Assembly: GCF_001921205.1 (NCBI RefSeq)
Contig: NZ_MSIE01000048.1
Span: 1-64,000 of the forward strand
Direction: 5' to 3'
Source: Actinophytocola xanthii
Lineage (GTDB): Bacteria; Actinomycetota; Actinomycetes; Mycobacteriales; Pseudonocardiaceae
DNA: 64,000 nt
Below the pieces are notes generated by a model. It did not search any database, was not told the origin of the DNA, and saw only the letters and a program-made list of their open reading frames with translations. Position numbers and translations under genes: made by a program. Positions 7,886 through 41,911 of this stretch are shown here, piece by piece; within the stretch, counting starts at the first letter, position 1, and the number at the start of each line of letters is the position of its first letter.

Positions 7886-8385
7886 AGTCGTCCCTCCCCA
7901 CCCGCGCGCCGGGGGGCGAAGCGCGGCAGCGCGCCGCCGGGCGTCGGCTTGCCGGTGGTCGGCGCGTCCGGCTCGATCACCTCGCCGGTCTCGATCCTCG
8001 ACTTCACGTCGCGCAGCATCCGGCGCAGCTCCTGGTGGGGGTCGTCGCCGCGCAGCCGGGACGCCACGCCGCCGTCGGCGTGTGGTATCCGGGCCGCGAG
8101 CTCGGTCCCGCGTTCGCCGGGAGCCGGCGTCAGCCGGGTCTCCACGCCCGGACCCAGGTCGGGCAGGGCCTCCGCGACCTGGTCGTGCGGCGCGTTCACG
8201 GTGACCACCAGCCACCGCGGCTCCTCGGTGGGCCGCTCCGCCCCGTTCTCCGCCGTCCGGTCACCGAGCGTCCGCCGCTCACCCCCCTGCCGCTTCGCGC
8301 CGACTCTCCTGGCGACGGCCCGTCCCGCGGCGATCCCCGCGGCGACCCCCGCGGCGACCAGGGCTCCCGTACGCAACACGCTCAT
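7882..8385 (-). CDS. SRPBCC-like protein with N-terminal membrane anchor
   Basis: This protein has 167 residues. The N-terminus MSVLRTGALVAAGVAAGIAAG is a hydrophobic, Ala/Gly-rich segment followed by basic residues, suggesting a membrane anchor with the rest in the cytoplasm. The body (about 55-150) contains RWLVVTVNAPHDQVAEALPDL, and its end RMLRDVKSRIETGEV matches the closing helix of the SRPBCC/polyketide-cyclase-like proteins often found beside zinc alcohol dehydrogenases. The ligand is unknown. Its start overlaps the hemerythrin gene stop (ATGA) and its stop overlaps the dehydrogenase remnant, so all three belonged to one operon. Confidence 0.75.
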   Translation of the reverse strand: MSVLRTGALVAAGVAAGIAAGRAVARRVGAKRQGGERRTLGDRTAENGAERPTEEPRWLVVTVNAPHDQVAEALPDLGPGVETRLTPAPGERGTELAARIPHADGGVASRLRGDDPHQELRRMLRDVKSRIETGEVIEPDAPTTGKPTPGGALPRFAPRRAGGEGRL

Positions 8386-9080
8386 GTCCGGCTCTCCTTA
8401 CCGATGGCCTTGCCGGCCAGGTCCTTGGTTCGGTCGAACAGCGAGAGCAGCGGGCCGACGAGCGCGTTGCGAGTGGCCGACTCGACACCGGCGTGGGGGT
8501 GGGTCGGCGCGGCCGCCTCGGCGGCCCGCACCAGCGGAACCAACGCCCTGAGCTCGACCGCGGGCACCTGCTCCCGCAGCCGCGCGAACTCGTGGGTCTC
8601 CTCGTTCCGCGCGTGCTCGAGCACCTCATCGCGCAGCCGCGCGAGGACGGCGGAGAACTCGGGCGAGGCGGGCCCGAGCTTCTCCAGCGCCGCCAGCGTC
8701 CGCTTGGCCGTGTGCTCCTCGGCCAGCCGCTCGTCGATGACCGCACGACCCGAGCGCAGCGTCACCCGGGCAAGCGGGTGGACGAGCTGCTCCTCGGCGG
8801 TCTCGTGCACGGCCAGCAGCCGCACCAGGCGTTCGAACGCCTCCCGCCGCACGGTCCCGTCGCCGCGCTCCACCTCGTCGAAGAGTGCGGCGATGGCCCG
8901 GTGCTGGTCGGTCAGCAGATCGACGACGTCCCGGCCGCTCCCGGGTTCGTCGCTCTCGTCATCGCCGTCCTCGTCCCCGGCCTGCCGCTCCGCCACGCGA
9001 CGCTCGGCCTGCTCGCCTTCCTCCCGGCCGCCCTCGGCCGGCTCCTCGGGGTGCGGGGTACGACCGCGGTCCTCGGTCAT
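8382..9080 (-). CDS. Hemerythrin HHE-domain protein
   Basis: This protein has 232 residues from the ATG at 9080, preceded by GGAGG at 9087-9091. An upstream in-frame Met at 9197 lacks a ribosome-binding site. The first 60 residues are acidic and low-complexity (HPEEPAEGGREEGEQAER). The HHE cation-binding domain follows at about 65-175, with LLTDQHRAIAALFDEV, AVHETAEEQLVHP, EEHTAKRTLAAL and VLEHARNEETHEF. These supply the His and Glu residues of a di-iron site. Likely roles are O2, NO or peroxide sensing or iron storage; the sequence does not decide. It is the first gene of a three-gene operon. Confidence 0.85.
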   Translation of the reverse strand: MTEDRGRTPHPEEPAEGGREEGEQAERRVAERQAGDEDGDDESDEPGSGRDVVDLLTDQHRAIAALFDEVERGDGTVRREAFERLVRLLAVHETAEEQLVHPLARVTLRSGRAVIDERLAEEHTAKRTLAALEKLGPASPEFSAVLARLRDEVLEHARNEETHEFARLREQVPAVELRALVPLVRAAEAAAPTHPHAGVESATRNALVGPLLSLFDRTKDLAGKAIGKESRT

Positions 9081-38695: not shown

Positions 38696-39205
38696 ATGGA
38701 GCGGACCCCGGCACGCGCGGACGTGGAGACGATGGCGCGGCGGACCGCGCTCGCCCATGCCGTTCAGGAAGACCTGGCGGCGGCAGGGCTGCCGGTCGAC
38801 ACGGGAACGACGGCCTTCCACGCCGCGGTGGGTTCGGGGGCGTCGGTGTCGGTCAGCGAGCTGGCCGACGAGAACGGGGTGTTCGTGCTGTGGCGGACCC
38901 ACCACGTCCTGCGGGCCGCCGTGCTCACGGCACTCAGCGAGGGCCGCGAGCACGACAGCCCCGCCGTGCACCACAGCGGCGAGGCCCAACGGGCAATGCA
39001 GAACGCGATGGCCGAGATTCTCACCGCGACCGGCTGCACGGTCATCAAGGACTTCGACGACATGTCCCCGTTCGTGCTGAAGGTCGTCGACCGCACACCC
39101 CCGACCGGCCCCTCCTGGCAGGCCTGGCTCGACGCCCAGAGCGACGCCCTCGCCGCGGCGAGGGCTGAGACCATCCGCCGCCATGCCGAGAAAAGAACAC
39201 CCTAG
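38696..39205 (+). CDS. Hypothetical protein
   Basis: 169 residues from the ATG at 38696; no ribosome-binding site, but an AATGCT element seven bases upstream suggests a leaderless transcript. Mostly helical, soluble, with no signal peptide or membrane segment; not recognised. It holds an extended-looking strand region (GASVSVSELADENGVFVLWRTHHVL) and a C-terminal helix rich in Ala, Arg and Glu. Its stop overlaps the stop of the convergent tandem-cyclase gene by four bases. This tight packing makes both ends firm. Confidence 0.65.
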   Translation: MERTPARADVETMARRTALAHAVQEDLAAAGLPVDTGTTAFHAAVGSGASVSVSELADENGVFVLWRTHHVLRAAVLTALSEGREHDSPAVHHSGEAQRAMQNAMAEILTATGCTVIKDFDDMSPFVLKVVDRTPPTGPSWQAWLDAQSDALAAARAETIRRHAEKRTP

Positions 39206-40416
39206 GCGCGATCACCCGCCAGATCTCCGCCCAGCCAGCAGACCCACGTGGCGAGGTCGCGCTTCTTCGCCCGCACGAGGCGCGGCTCGTAACGTTCGGG
39301 ATCGATCTCTCCATATCCGTGACGCACGACGCCGTTGTAGATGACGTCACTGACCATGAGCACGGCCGGCGCGGCACGGAGGGCGAGACATTCGCGCAGT
39401 TCGTCGGAGTCCACAAGCCAACTGGCCTCGTTGAGCGCGCTCCCGAAGAAGTCCGAGCCGTCCCACAGAAGCTCTCCCGCGTGCAGCACGGTCCGGAGCC
39501 TCATGCGCTCTCCCGGCGCCGCCGCGTCGTTGTAGCGAACCAGGCGCCGAACGAGCGCGGCGACCAGCGGCCCGGCCAGGCGGTTCTTCGCCACCTCGGG
39601 CAGGAAGAGCACCCGCCAGCCGTCTCCGGTGTCCTTCGCGGTGAACGCCTCCGGTGCCACCCCGATGTCGGCGACCGCGCCGAACACGATGGACCGCAGC
39701 TCGGCGCGGTGCCGCCATTTGACGTCGTCGGGCCGGGAGTCGGAGTCCTCGATGTCGACGAGCAGGATGCTGCGGTGGAGCAGGTCGCCCGGCCCGTCGA
39801 CCGGGCCGGAGCGGGGTTGCGGCGAGGGACCGGTGACACCGGGGATGTAGATCCACGCGGGAAAGCTCGTGCCCTTGAACTCGACGGTGACAGGTCGGTA
39901 GCTGGCGGGGTCGACACCGGGCAGCCCGGCCTCGATCACTCCGTCGCGAATGGGCGCGGATACACCGACGACCAGGTCGCCGAGCGCGAGGCTCGTCGCC
40001 GCCCGCACCTCCGCCGAGTCCAACAGACGGAAGACGCTCTCCACCGCGTCGCCGGCCGTTCCGCGCTCGTCGAAGAGGACCTCACCCGCGTGGATCGCCA
40101 CCCGCAGGCGCAGCCGCTCCTCCCGACCGACGTTGTACTCACTCAACAGCGCGAACAGTCCGGGAACGAAGTCGTCGAGCAGACGGTTCTTCGGAAATCC
40201 CGGCCCGAGGACGACGAGAGCTCCGTCACCCCGGTCCTCGAAGTGGACAGCGCCGGGCTCACCGACACCGGCTCGGCGAAGTCCCTCGTTCAGGGCGCGG
40301 TAAAGCGCCGAACGGACCTCTACCCGGGCCGGGTTAGTGCGTCGGGTTGAGGCCGCGATGTCCACAGCGACGAGGGCCGTATGGACGGGCGTCAGGGCCT
40401 CTTCGCTACCGCTCAC
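39202..40416 (-). CDS. Tandem class III nucleotidyl-cyclase-like protein
   Basis: 404 residues, GTG start. Two related domains. Domain 1 (about 12-145): ALVAVDIAAST with D19, EDRGDGALVV with D64, HAGEVLFDERGTAGDAVESVFRLLDS. Domain 2 (about 214-350): ILLVDIEDSDS with D221, KDTGDGWRVLF with D265, HAGELLWDG...GSALNEASWLVDS. Both keep the two metal-binding Asp residues of class III cyclases. The base-selecting position is Glu in domain 1 and Lys in domain 2. Domain 1 keeps the transition-state Arg (R130) and domain 2 the Asn (N329), each having lost the other. This looks like an internal heterodimer. No membrane segment or known effector domain. It starts 57 bases after lexA on the same strand. 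Confidence 0.75.
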   Translation of the reverse strand: MSGSEEALTPVHTALVAVDIAASTRRTNPARVEVRSALYRALNEGLRRAGVGEPGAVHFEDRGDGALVVLGPGFPKNRLLDDFVPGLFALLSEYNVGREERLRLRVAIHAGEVLFDERGTAGDAVESVFRLLDSAEVRAATSLALGDLVVGVSAPIRDGVIEAGLPGVDPASYRPVTVEFKGTSFPAWIYIPGVTGPSPQPRSGPVDGPGDLLHRSILLVDIEDSDSRPDDVKWRHRAELRSIVFGAVADIGVAPEAFTAKDTGDGWRVLFLPEVAKNRLAGPLVAALVRRLVRYNDAAAPGERMRLRTVLHAGELLWDGSDFFGSALNEASWLVDSDELRECLALRAAPAVLMVSDVIYNGVVRHGYGEIDPERYEPRLVRAKKRDLATWVCWLGGDLAGDRA

Positions 40417-40473
40417 GTCGGTACCCTTCCGTGCGCCGGACGGTGGTACCCATTGTGCCGGTAGACAGGTCCC

Positions 40474-41133
40474 TCAGACGCTCCGCAGGACCGAGACGAC
40501 GATGCCGAGCACGACGGCCTGGTCCCCGTCGATCACCTCGTAGGCGGGGTTCCGCGGCTCCAGGTACACGTGCCCGTTGCGGCGCCGGTACACCTTGACC
40601 GTGGCCTCGCCGTCGATCATCGCGGCGACGATCTGGCCGGAGTGGGCCTCGTGCTGTTGGCGGACGACGACCATGTCGCCGTCGCAGATGGCGGCGTCGA
40701 TCATGGAGTCGCCGCGGACGCGGAGGCCGAACACGGTGCCGCGGCCGGTGAGCTCGCGGGGCAGCGTGAGCATGTCGTCGACGTGCTCCTCGGCGGCGAT
40801 CGGGACACCGGCGGCGATGTCGCCGACGACCGGCACGGTCACCGAGTCCTGGTGGGGATCCACTCCCGACTCCCGCCGCAGGAAGACCCGCACGTCGATC
40901 GGCCGCGACACCGTGTCGCTGCGCCGCAGGAAACCCTTCTCCTCCAGGCTCGCCAGGTGCCTGGACACCGACGACGACGAACGCAGGCCGACGGCGTCGC
41001 CGATCTGCCGCGTACTCGGCGAGTACCCGTGCCGGACCACCCAGTCCCGGATCACGACCAGGATCCGCTGCTGACGCGGCGGCAGGCTCGAGGCGTCCAA
41101 CTGCTCGAAGACATCGTCGTCGTAGTCGATCAC
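40474..41133 (-). CDS. lexA: LexA repressor
   Basis: 219 residues from the GTG at 41133; a GTG at 41172 lies inside a hairpin and is less likely. N-terminal winged helix: PPRQQRILVVIRDWVVRHGYSPSTRQIGDAVGLRSSSSVSRHLASLEEKGFLRR. The Ala-Gly autocleavage site is A108-G109 in VVGDIAAGVPIA, with catalytic S143 in RGDSMIDAAI and K180 in ATVKVYRR. It represses SOS genes until RecA* triggers cleavage. I see no canonical actinobacterial SOS box (TCGAAC-N4-GTTCGA-like) in the short upstream gap, so self-regulation is uncertain. A tandem cyclase-like gene follows at 57 bases and is probably co-transcribed. Confidence 0.93.
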   Translation of the reverse strand: MIDYDDDVFEQLDASSLPPRQQRILVVIRDWVVRHGYSPSTRQIGDAVGLRSSSSVSRHLASLEEKGFLRRSDTVSRPIDVRVFLRRESGVDPHQDSVTVPVVGDIAAGVPIAAEEHVDDMLTLPRELTGRGTVFGLRVRGDSMIDAAICDGDMVVVRQQHEAHSGQIVAAMIDGEATVKVYRRRNGHVYLEPRNPAYEVIDGDQAVVLGIVVSVLRSV

Positions 41134-41147
41134 CGACGAATGATAGA

Positions 41148-41178
41148 GGCCGGGTGCTCCACATGGGAGCACCCGGCC
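41148..41178. terminator. Strong hairpin between trypsin-like gene and lexA
   Basis: Perfect 13-bp arms (41148-41160 and 41166-41178) with loop ACATG, 11 bases after the stop of the leftward protease gene. It probably ends that transcript. It lies only 15 bases from the lexA start, so the lexA promoter must overlap it; TATCAT on the minus strand just before the GTG could be a -10 element for a leaderless lexA mRNA. Confidence 0.7.
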
Positions 41179-41188
41179 CCGGCCCTCG

Positions 41189-41911
41189 TCAGACCCCGGC
41201 CACCGACCTGATCCAGCTTCGGTAGTTGGTGACGTTCGTGTACGCGGTCCGGGTGGCCCGGTCGCTCGTCGACGCCACGCCGACCTGGCGGCCGGAGGCG
41301 AACATCGGGCCGCCCGAGTCGCCGCCCGCGGTGATGCCGTCCACGCGGGACGCGCACACCGCGACCCCGCCGGTGTAGTCCGAGCACCGCACCGAGGTGA
41401 CCCGGACGTTGGCGTACTTGAGGTAGCGGGACTGGCAGTTGATCTCGGGCTGGTTCGTGCAGGTGGCGCCCCAGCCGTAGACCTGCACGGTCTGCCCGAC
41501 GGCGACGTCGCTGGAGGTGCCCAGCGGCGCGTAGGTCGCCGTGACGCTGCGGTCCAGGCGCGCGATCGCGAGGTCCGCGCTCGAGTGGCGGGTGATCGTG
41601 GTGGCGTTGGCGACAGTGCCGCCGCTGGTCTGGTCCAGGCTGCCGATCCGGAACGAGTAGCTGCCGGACCCGGACACGCAGTGCCTCGCGGTCAGGACGT
41701 AGGTGGGCGCGATGATCGTGGCCGAGCAGTTCTGCTGGCCGTTGACGAACAGCCGCGCCGCCCAGGGGGCGTTGCTGGCCGTACTGCCACCGATGATCAT
41801 CGGGGTGGCGCCTGGCTCCTCGGCCGGCGGGGCCGCGAGGGCGTGGGGTGCCGCCGCCGCCAGGGCGAGCGCCGCCCCGACCACCGCTGTGGCAACTCTG
41901 AGGATCTTCAT
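41189..41911 (-). CDS. Secreted trypsin-like serine protease (S1)
   Basis: 240 residues. Signal peptide (ATAVVGAALALAAAAPHALA) and a short propeptide precede MIIGGSTASNAPWAARL. The catalytic triad is visible: His in VLTARHCVSG, Asp in SADLAIARLD and Ser in GITAGGDSGGPMF. Cysteines around these motifs could form disulfides. An extracellular protease of the chymotrypsin clan. A single gene ended by a strong hairpin. Confidence 0.9.
   Translation of the reverse strand: MKILRVATAVVGAALALAAAAPHALAAPPAEEPGATPMIIGGSTASNAPWAARLFVNGQQNCSATIIAPTYVLTARHCVSGSGSYSFRIGSLDQTSGGTVANATTITRHSSADLAIARLDRSVTATYAPLGTSSDVAVGQTVQVYGWGATCTNQPEINCQSRYLKYANVRVTSVRCSDYTGGVAVCASRVDGITAGGDSGGPMFASGRQVGVASTSDRATRTAYTNVTNYRSWIRSVAGV

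Follow-up and report, generated by a model that had tools for sequence, protein, structure and literature searches.

In class III cyclase dimers, the Asn and the Arg of one active site are supplied by the same subunit, and at each site one domain provides the metal-binding residues and its partner provides the base-recognition residues together with the Asn and Arg. In animal adenylyl cyclases, the second site is a regulatory pseudosite, and human soluble adenylyl cyclase (sAC, ADCY10) and AC9 carry two unequal cyclase domains on each chain. Here, we describe a gene of comparable layout in Actinophytocola xanthii (Pseudonocardiaceae), found within positions 1 to 64,000 of contig NZ_MSIE01000048.1; this whole 64,000-nucleotide (nt) stretch is hereafter the window. 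The gene encodes a tandem class III cyclase-like protein with two domains, D1 and D2, and lies directly behind lexA2, the second lexA gene of the genome.

Three further kinds of described system provide context. The class III adenylyl cyclase Ma1120 of Mycobacterium avium has one cyclase domain per chain, in which Lys-Asp or Glu-Gly at the same two positions sets the base; in the available part of that study, Glu-Gly is treated as a guanylyl cyclase (GC) pair, GC residues at K101 and D157 markedly raised GC activity and lowered adenylyl cyclase (AC) activity, K101E/D157G was the best double mutant, and the enzyme naturally carries Ala instead of Asn (PMC4215837). The window protein has the same fold and the same Asp/Asn/Arg spacing as Ma1120 (157-164-168) but, unlike Ma1120, fuses one domain of each type. 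PycC of Pycsar has a class III fold with two metal Asp residues (PMC11224242, available part), features that the window protein shares; unlike Pycsar, the tandem cyclase has no recognized PycTM- or PycTIR-like neighbor among the 11 scanned and no PADLOC match. Kaur et al. (2020, PMC7159879), in the part available, describe cyclic nucleotide monophosphate (cNMP) cyclase domains in fusions with VMAP as well as at effector positions, and call several vWA-fused cNMP cyclase domains inactive. We infer that the cyclase family of that paper is the same subfamily as the window domain, and a paralogue in the A. xanthii genome is likewise fused to VMAP-M0/VMAP-C; unlike the VMAP/STAND systems, the window protein has two cyclase domains only and no VMAP, vWA, MoxR, or NTPase domain. 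Tandem cyclases and such cyclase domains are known kinds, and a fusion with one domain per base type is a variant. Our literature search found no description of a lexA-tandem-cyclase unit, which does not prove that none exists.

Both halves of the protein keep the two metal Asp residues (D19/D64 in D1, D221/D265 in D2), and the remaining catalytic positions are asymmetric. D1 has the guanylyl-type pair E60-G119, with E126 at the Asn position and R130 as the transition-state Arg. D2 has the adenylyl-type pair K261-D322, with N329 and with W333 where the transition-state Arg belongs. The first-pass annotation, made from the sequence alone, had named D19, D64, E60, R130, D221, D265, K261, and N329, as well as a GTG start at 40416 lying 57 nt past the lexA stop on the same strand, and all of these were found in place. 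It had also proposed a catalytic set split between the domains; the asymmetry stood, but D322, W333, and E126 had been missed, and since the Asn and Arg of a site share a subunit, R130 and N329 would not together complete a site. With the metals of a site drawn from one domain and its remaining residues from the partner, the expectation is therefore one GC-like site with an Arg and one AC-like site without.

We tentatively favor, with less than even confidence, a reading in which this class III fusion is real, its halves most likely pair within one chain to give two unequal sites, and its gene is probably co-transcribed with lexA2 from a leaderless promoter. Site B would combine metals D221 and D265 of D2 with the base and transition-state residues E60, G119, and R130 of D1; it would be GC-like and, of the two, more likely to be catalytic. 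Site A would combine metals D19 and D64 of D1 with base residues K261, D322, and N329 of D2 and would favor ATP, which it would bind as a regulatory pseudosite because the catalytic Arg is missing (W333).

Comparison with relatives sets these residues in context. Among 88 distinct domains found by homology, the fairer sample for residue counts, the metal Asp residues were present in all 88 and the transition-state Arg in 86, while first-base Glu was present in 34, second-base Gly in 76, and Glu and Gly together in 33. A second set of 85 domains was taken from 242 relatives, with the best 80 loci kept; its first-base Glu count (78/85) and its Gly-Asp counts are biased because the fishing patterns contained the motif EDRGDG and RLR. 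Pooling gave 168 distinct domains, the biased set included, with metal Asp residues in 168, Arg in 166, first-base Glu in 107, and second-base Gly in 156. Lys at the first position and Asp at the second were each found in D2 of the window alone (1/88 in the homology set, 0/85 in the second set).

We then considered the fold. D1 and D2 share 33% identity across 185 residues (E 2e-24, two-sequence blastp), and a single domain hidden Markov model (HMM), built from relatives found with D1, matched both halves (7.5e-67 and 1.1e-55). The tandem cyclase matched no family in Pfam or NCBIfam at E up to 1. Against the PDB, a profile of 28 domains of the family, D1 among them, matched 3mr7 (2.5e-8), the Ma1120 "EGY" mutant (1.1e-6), wild-type Ma1120 (about 1e-5), and GC-A (4.5e-4), and a profile of D2 plus relatives also matched class III cyclases (six sequences at E up to 0.01). 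Modeled alone, D2 reached a predicted local distance difference test score (pLDDT) of 93.4 and a predicted template modeling score (pTM) of 0.89, and its best Foldseek match was Ma1120 (E 6.5e-9). For the full-length two-domain model (pLDDT 83.7, pTM 0.58), two tandem cyclases on single chains ranked first among structural matches, AC9 C1-C2 and human sAC. Shared HMM, profile matches, and predicted folds thus bear out the two class III cyclase-like domains of the first reading. Its single-chain pseudo-heterodimer is retained in part, with the two folds, the AC9/sAC matches, and the asymmetric residues in its favor and its SOS control given up. Unlike ADCY10 and AC9, the window halves both retain both metal Asp residues, and the Arg is absent from the AC-type domain. 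In the models, each half fits the cyclase fold, but the predicted domain arrangement does not reproduce the known C1-C2 pairing.

The cyclase domain is common in the family and its tandem form is not. Thirteen further loci with the domain are present in the same genome. Ten relatives were scanned with Pfam, comprising eight of these 13 loci and one each from two same-genus genomes: six passed the cut-off for NB-ARC and TPR_12 (four being own-genome), one had AAA_16, one VMAP-M0/VMAP-C, one a weak NACHT match below cut-off, and one a solute-binding-type match. That leaves five own-genome loci, namely four short open reading frames (ORFs) of 211–233 residues and a 611-residue ORF with the domain at its end. 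By domain content, then, members of this cyclase family serve in Pseudonocardiaceae either as modules of STAND/VMAP conflict proteins or as small genes that stand alone. Pfam itself recognizes few members: among 66, one matched Guanylate_cyc (0.041) and two matched GGDEF_2 (best 0.006). In genome searches scoring the best four candidates per genome, 131 of 390 family genomes had a match at 1e-25, and two of 394 class genomes, own included, at 1e-30. No second protein spanning both domains was found among the matches listed for these genomes, and a scan of genome contigs with the whole protein found no relative. Two-domain ORFs made up 3 of 112 domain-bearing entries (a redundant count), all three being the window ORF itself, and 0/85 in the second set. 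Plasmid records yielded 10 relatives, all below 60% identity; four of them cover more than 80% of the query and were considered as tandem relatives, but were read as single-domain because both query halves match one stretch of 570–729 bases.

A tree of 173 domains, a quick build with Shimodaira-Hasegawa-like approximate likelihood ratio test (SH-aLRT) support only, placed D1 sister to a 28-row clade (SH-aLRT 97) and D2 elsewhere, on a branch of length 2.22. Since D1 and D2 sit apart in this tree, the halves more likely come from different paralogues that became fused than from a recent duplication, although the long branch makes the place of D2 unsure.

Separately, in the 28-row clade that is sister to D1, we noted a regulator with an HTH_31 domain near 22 rows, divergent in all 22. 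At L054:6667-8706 (own genome, C129), a stand-alone single-domain cyclase lies head-to-head with such a regulator of ~360 residues, and the pair was also seen at L003, L005, L027, L030, L101, L105, L111–L113, L115–L120, L123–L127, and L139; cyclase plus regulator looks like a conserved module by gene arrangement. The regulator profile had no meaningful match in the PDB. A palindrome, TTCA[N]TGAA, was tried as the regulator's operator; it was exact in only 8/22 intergenic regions. Behind the regulator in two same-genus genomes is a 407–410-residue gene (L054:5472-6695, L064:4979-6211; 65% conserved) with no NCBIfam match, the L054 copy also having no Pfam match. Finally, at L058 (4273-9303 versus 8245-8940), the predicted N-terminal part of an nSTAND1-WD40 protein is overlapped by a stand-alone cyclase ORF on the opposite strand, and one of these ORF calls is probably too long.

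Several observations weigh against in-chain pairing of two functional halves. The full-length model, of pTM 0.58, superposed on AC9 and sAC at ~22 Å root-mean-square deviation over both domains; this is weak evidence against docking because the aligned rows fell on D1 only (the structure alignment used 65 of 85 available relatives, and a local test placed 85/85 on D1). The Glu of D1 at the Asn position is the sole Glu there among the 88 domains, and the D1 sister clade has no first-base Glu (0/28; 15 have Val), so the guanylyl-type reading of D1 hangs on one residue pair. The long branch of D2 is also compatible with decay, the genome searches found no orthologue for a selection test, and neither a cNMP receptor nor a known effector or defense partner was recognized by Pfam among 11 neighbors, three of which have no match.

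Some of these points would suit a catalytically dead nucleotide sensor or a decaying fusion, in which either D2 is degenerating and the protein only binds nucleotide, or the protein is a short-lived product of rearrangements in a region that changes fast. The Arg that 166/168 distinct domains keep is missing from D2, which sits on a long branch, no full-length homologue is among the matches listed for the 390 family genomes, the convergent neighbor is nearly lineage-specific too (a match in 2/41 genomes, own included), and inactive vWA-fused cyclase domains have a precedent in the available part of Kaur et al. (PMC7159879). Yet the four metal Asp residues, both Gly-Asp motifs, and the fold are intact, 404 codons are open, and the K-D pair of D2 is AC-type rather than a random change. 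We take this alternative seriously while doubting it. Alternatively, two chains could pair through their D1 domains, the only way open to single-domain relatives, with D2 as a regulatory appendage. D1 does unite metals, Glu-Gly, and Arg, like many single-domain members of the family, and most proteins of its sister clade are stand-alone and single-domain. However, the metal and base residues retained in D2 would suit a shared site, and the short linker of ~15 residues would favor in-chain pairing. We consider a D1 homodimer unlikely.

We also examined transcription across the locus. The lexA2 ORF spans 40474-41172 on the strand of the cyclase, so the strand of the earlier lexA call stands; its extent is revised, the likely start being the GTG at 41133 and not 41172. 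A TANNNT hexamer lies directly before the start codon in 27 of 28 lexA2 promoters read (the window plus 27 relatives, one further relative being unreadable), which suggests a promoter of leaderless type. A consensus scan found neither a terminator nor a sigma-70 promoter in the lexA2-cyclase gap, the RNA fold of which is unremarkable (z −0.97), and co-transcription of the two genes from the leaderless promoter is plausible on this pattern. The region 41131-41195 folds strongly (z −5.8), and the hairpin within it possibly separates the transcription units of the trypsin-like gene and lexA2; the terminator scan omits it because it has no T run. At the cyclase stop is a weak terminator-like site (39209-39197; 0.8 expected by chance in the region), where the cyclase and the convergent gene meet tail to tail. 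The 11 neighboring window proteins, by Pfam, are an APH-like kinase, two trypsin-like proteases and one subtilase-like protease, two oxidoreductases, a helix-turn-helix–cupin regulator, an extracytoplasmic function-type sigma factor, and three without a match.

Coordinates of features at the tandem cyclase locus, in window positions (ORFs from a purpose-written caller)
Feature	Position	Strand	Basis or detail
Tandem class III cyclase-like protein, 404 residues, GTG start	39202..40416	−	ORF, alignment, fold
D1, residues 9–196	39829..40392	−	D19, D64 metals; E60/G119; E126 at Asn position; R130
D2, residues 212–398	39223..39783	−	D221, D265 metals; K261/D322; N329; W333 replacing Arg
Interdomain linker, residues 197–211	39784..39828	−	Predicted-model residues 201–207 with pLDDT <50
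lexA2-cyclase gap, 57 nt	40417..40473	−	Separates the lexA2 stop codon from the GTG of the cyclase
lexA2, second lexA of the genome, 219 residues from inferred GTG 41133	40474..41133	−	
TATCAT, −10-like hexamer	41140..41145	−	6 nt 5′ of lexA2 start
Strong hairpin between upstream trypsin-like gene and lexA2	41148..41178	−	Without T run
Convergent hypothetical gene, 169 residues	38696..39205	+	No Pfam match; overlaps cyclase stop by 4 nt

The first-pass annotation had further proposed that the cyclase is switched on with the SOS response and had asked whether a lexA-tandem-cyclase pair is conserved. The gene upstream is indeed a lexA, since its product has matches to S24, to the LexA DNA-binding domain, and, above cut-off, to TIGR00498, but it is a paralogue. 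The other lexA of the genome, on another contig (C122), lies beside a B12-dependent class II ribonucleotide reductase and diaminopimelate epimerase, and adjoins a GTP-binding GTPase, which we take to be HflX-type. It has an exact CGAAC-N4-GTTCG upstream, and the genome holds 26 exact SOS sites, whereas the control pattern, reversed, gave 5 on each strand. In contrast, exact GAAC-N4-GTTC occurs in 0/28 lexA2 promoters, and no SOS-like match with up to two mismatches was found between 38426 and 41298. A site with two mismatches lies at 41299, 166 nt upstream and within the trypsin-like gene. The best match in the lexA2-cyclase gap (40437-40450) has 3 of 10 positions mismatched, as does one just upstream of lexA2; sites this loose are common (502 seen versus 380 expected by chance in the window up to three mismatches; 79 versus 48 up to two). 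The recA and lexA boxes of S. venezuelae depart from the strict palindrome (PMC9380542, available part). Degenerate boxes could be missed because our search used a strict pattern; that search found no operator for LexA2, which might bind a different or degenerate one.

Nor did conservation support the pair. Close relatives of LexA2 (E <1e-80) occur in 28 of 59 other genomes searched, and a cyclase domain lies next to lexA2 in 0/28 relatives (flanks of ~1.5 kb). Over 19 kb, six relatives compared with the window genes of 30000-52000 shared only LexA2, except for one relative that also matched a gene at a distance of over 8 kb; by both comparisons, the neighbors of lexA2 are random, an outcome that the first-pass annotation had itself named as refuting its proposal. 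The pairing of lexA2 with a cyclase appears to be lineage-specific and does not have to imply SOS control, and after the searches of window and genome, lexA2 promoters, and neighborhoods, we rejected the DNA-damage link as unsupported. An SOS-type unit, in which LexA2 represses its own operon, cyclase included, until RecA-stimulated self-cleavage turns the cyclase on after DNA damage, would suit the shared strand, the short gap with no terminator found, and the domains of LexA2, but with an SOS-boxed lexA elsewhere, no SOS-like site with up to two mismatches between 38426 and 41298, and none of the 28 relatives with the same pair, it is improbable, the weakest of the explanations considered.

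The in-chain pairing that we favor can be carried further, to a GC-type plus AC-type chimera in which ATP at the Arg-less pseudosite gates cyclic GMP synthesis, a purine-balance sensor made together with a self-cleaving LexA paralogue; in this full form, we think it quite unlikely. If active, the protein would be a bacterial single-chain pseudo-heterodimeric cyclase built from two different paralogues, a natural parallel to the animal C1-C2 cyclases, and would make it simple to test what effect a half with AC-type residues but no Arg has on a GC-type half. More broadly, the locus points to a large, little-studied family of Pseudonocardiaceae cyclases that Pfam recognizes poorly and in which about a third of domains (33/88) carry the Glu-Gly pair.

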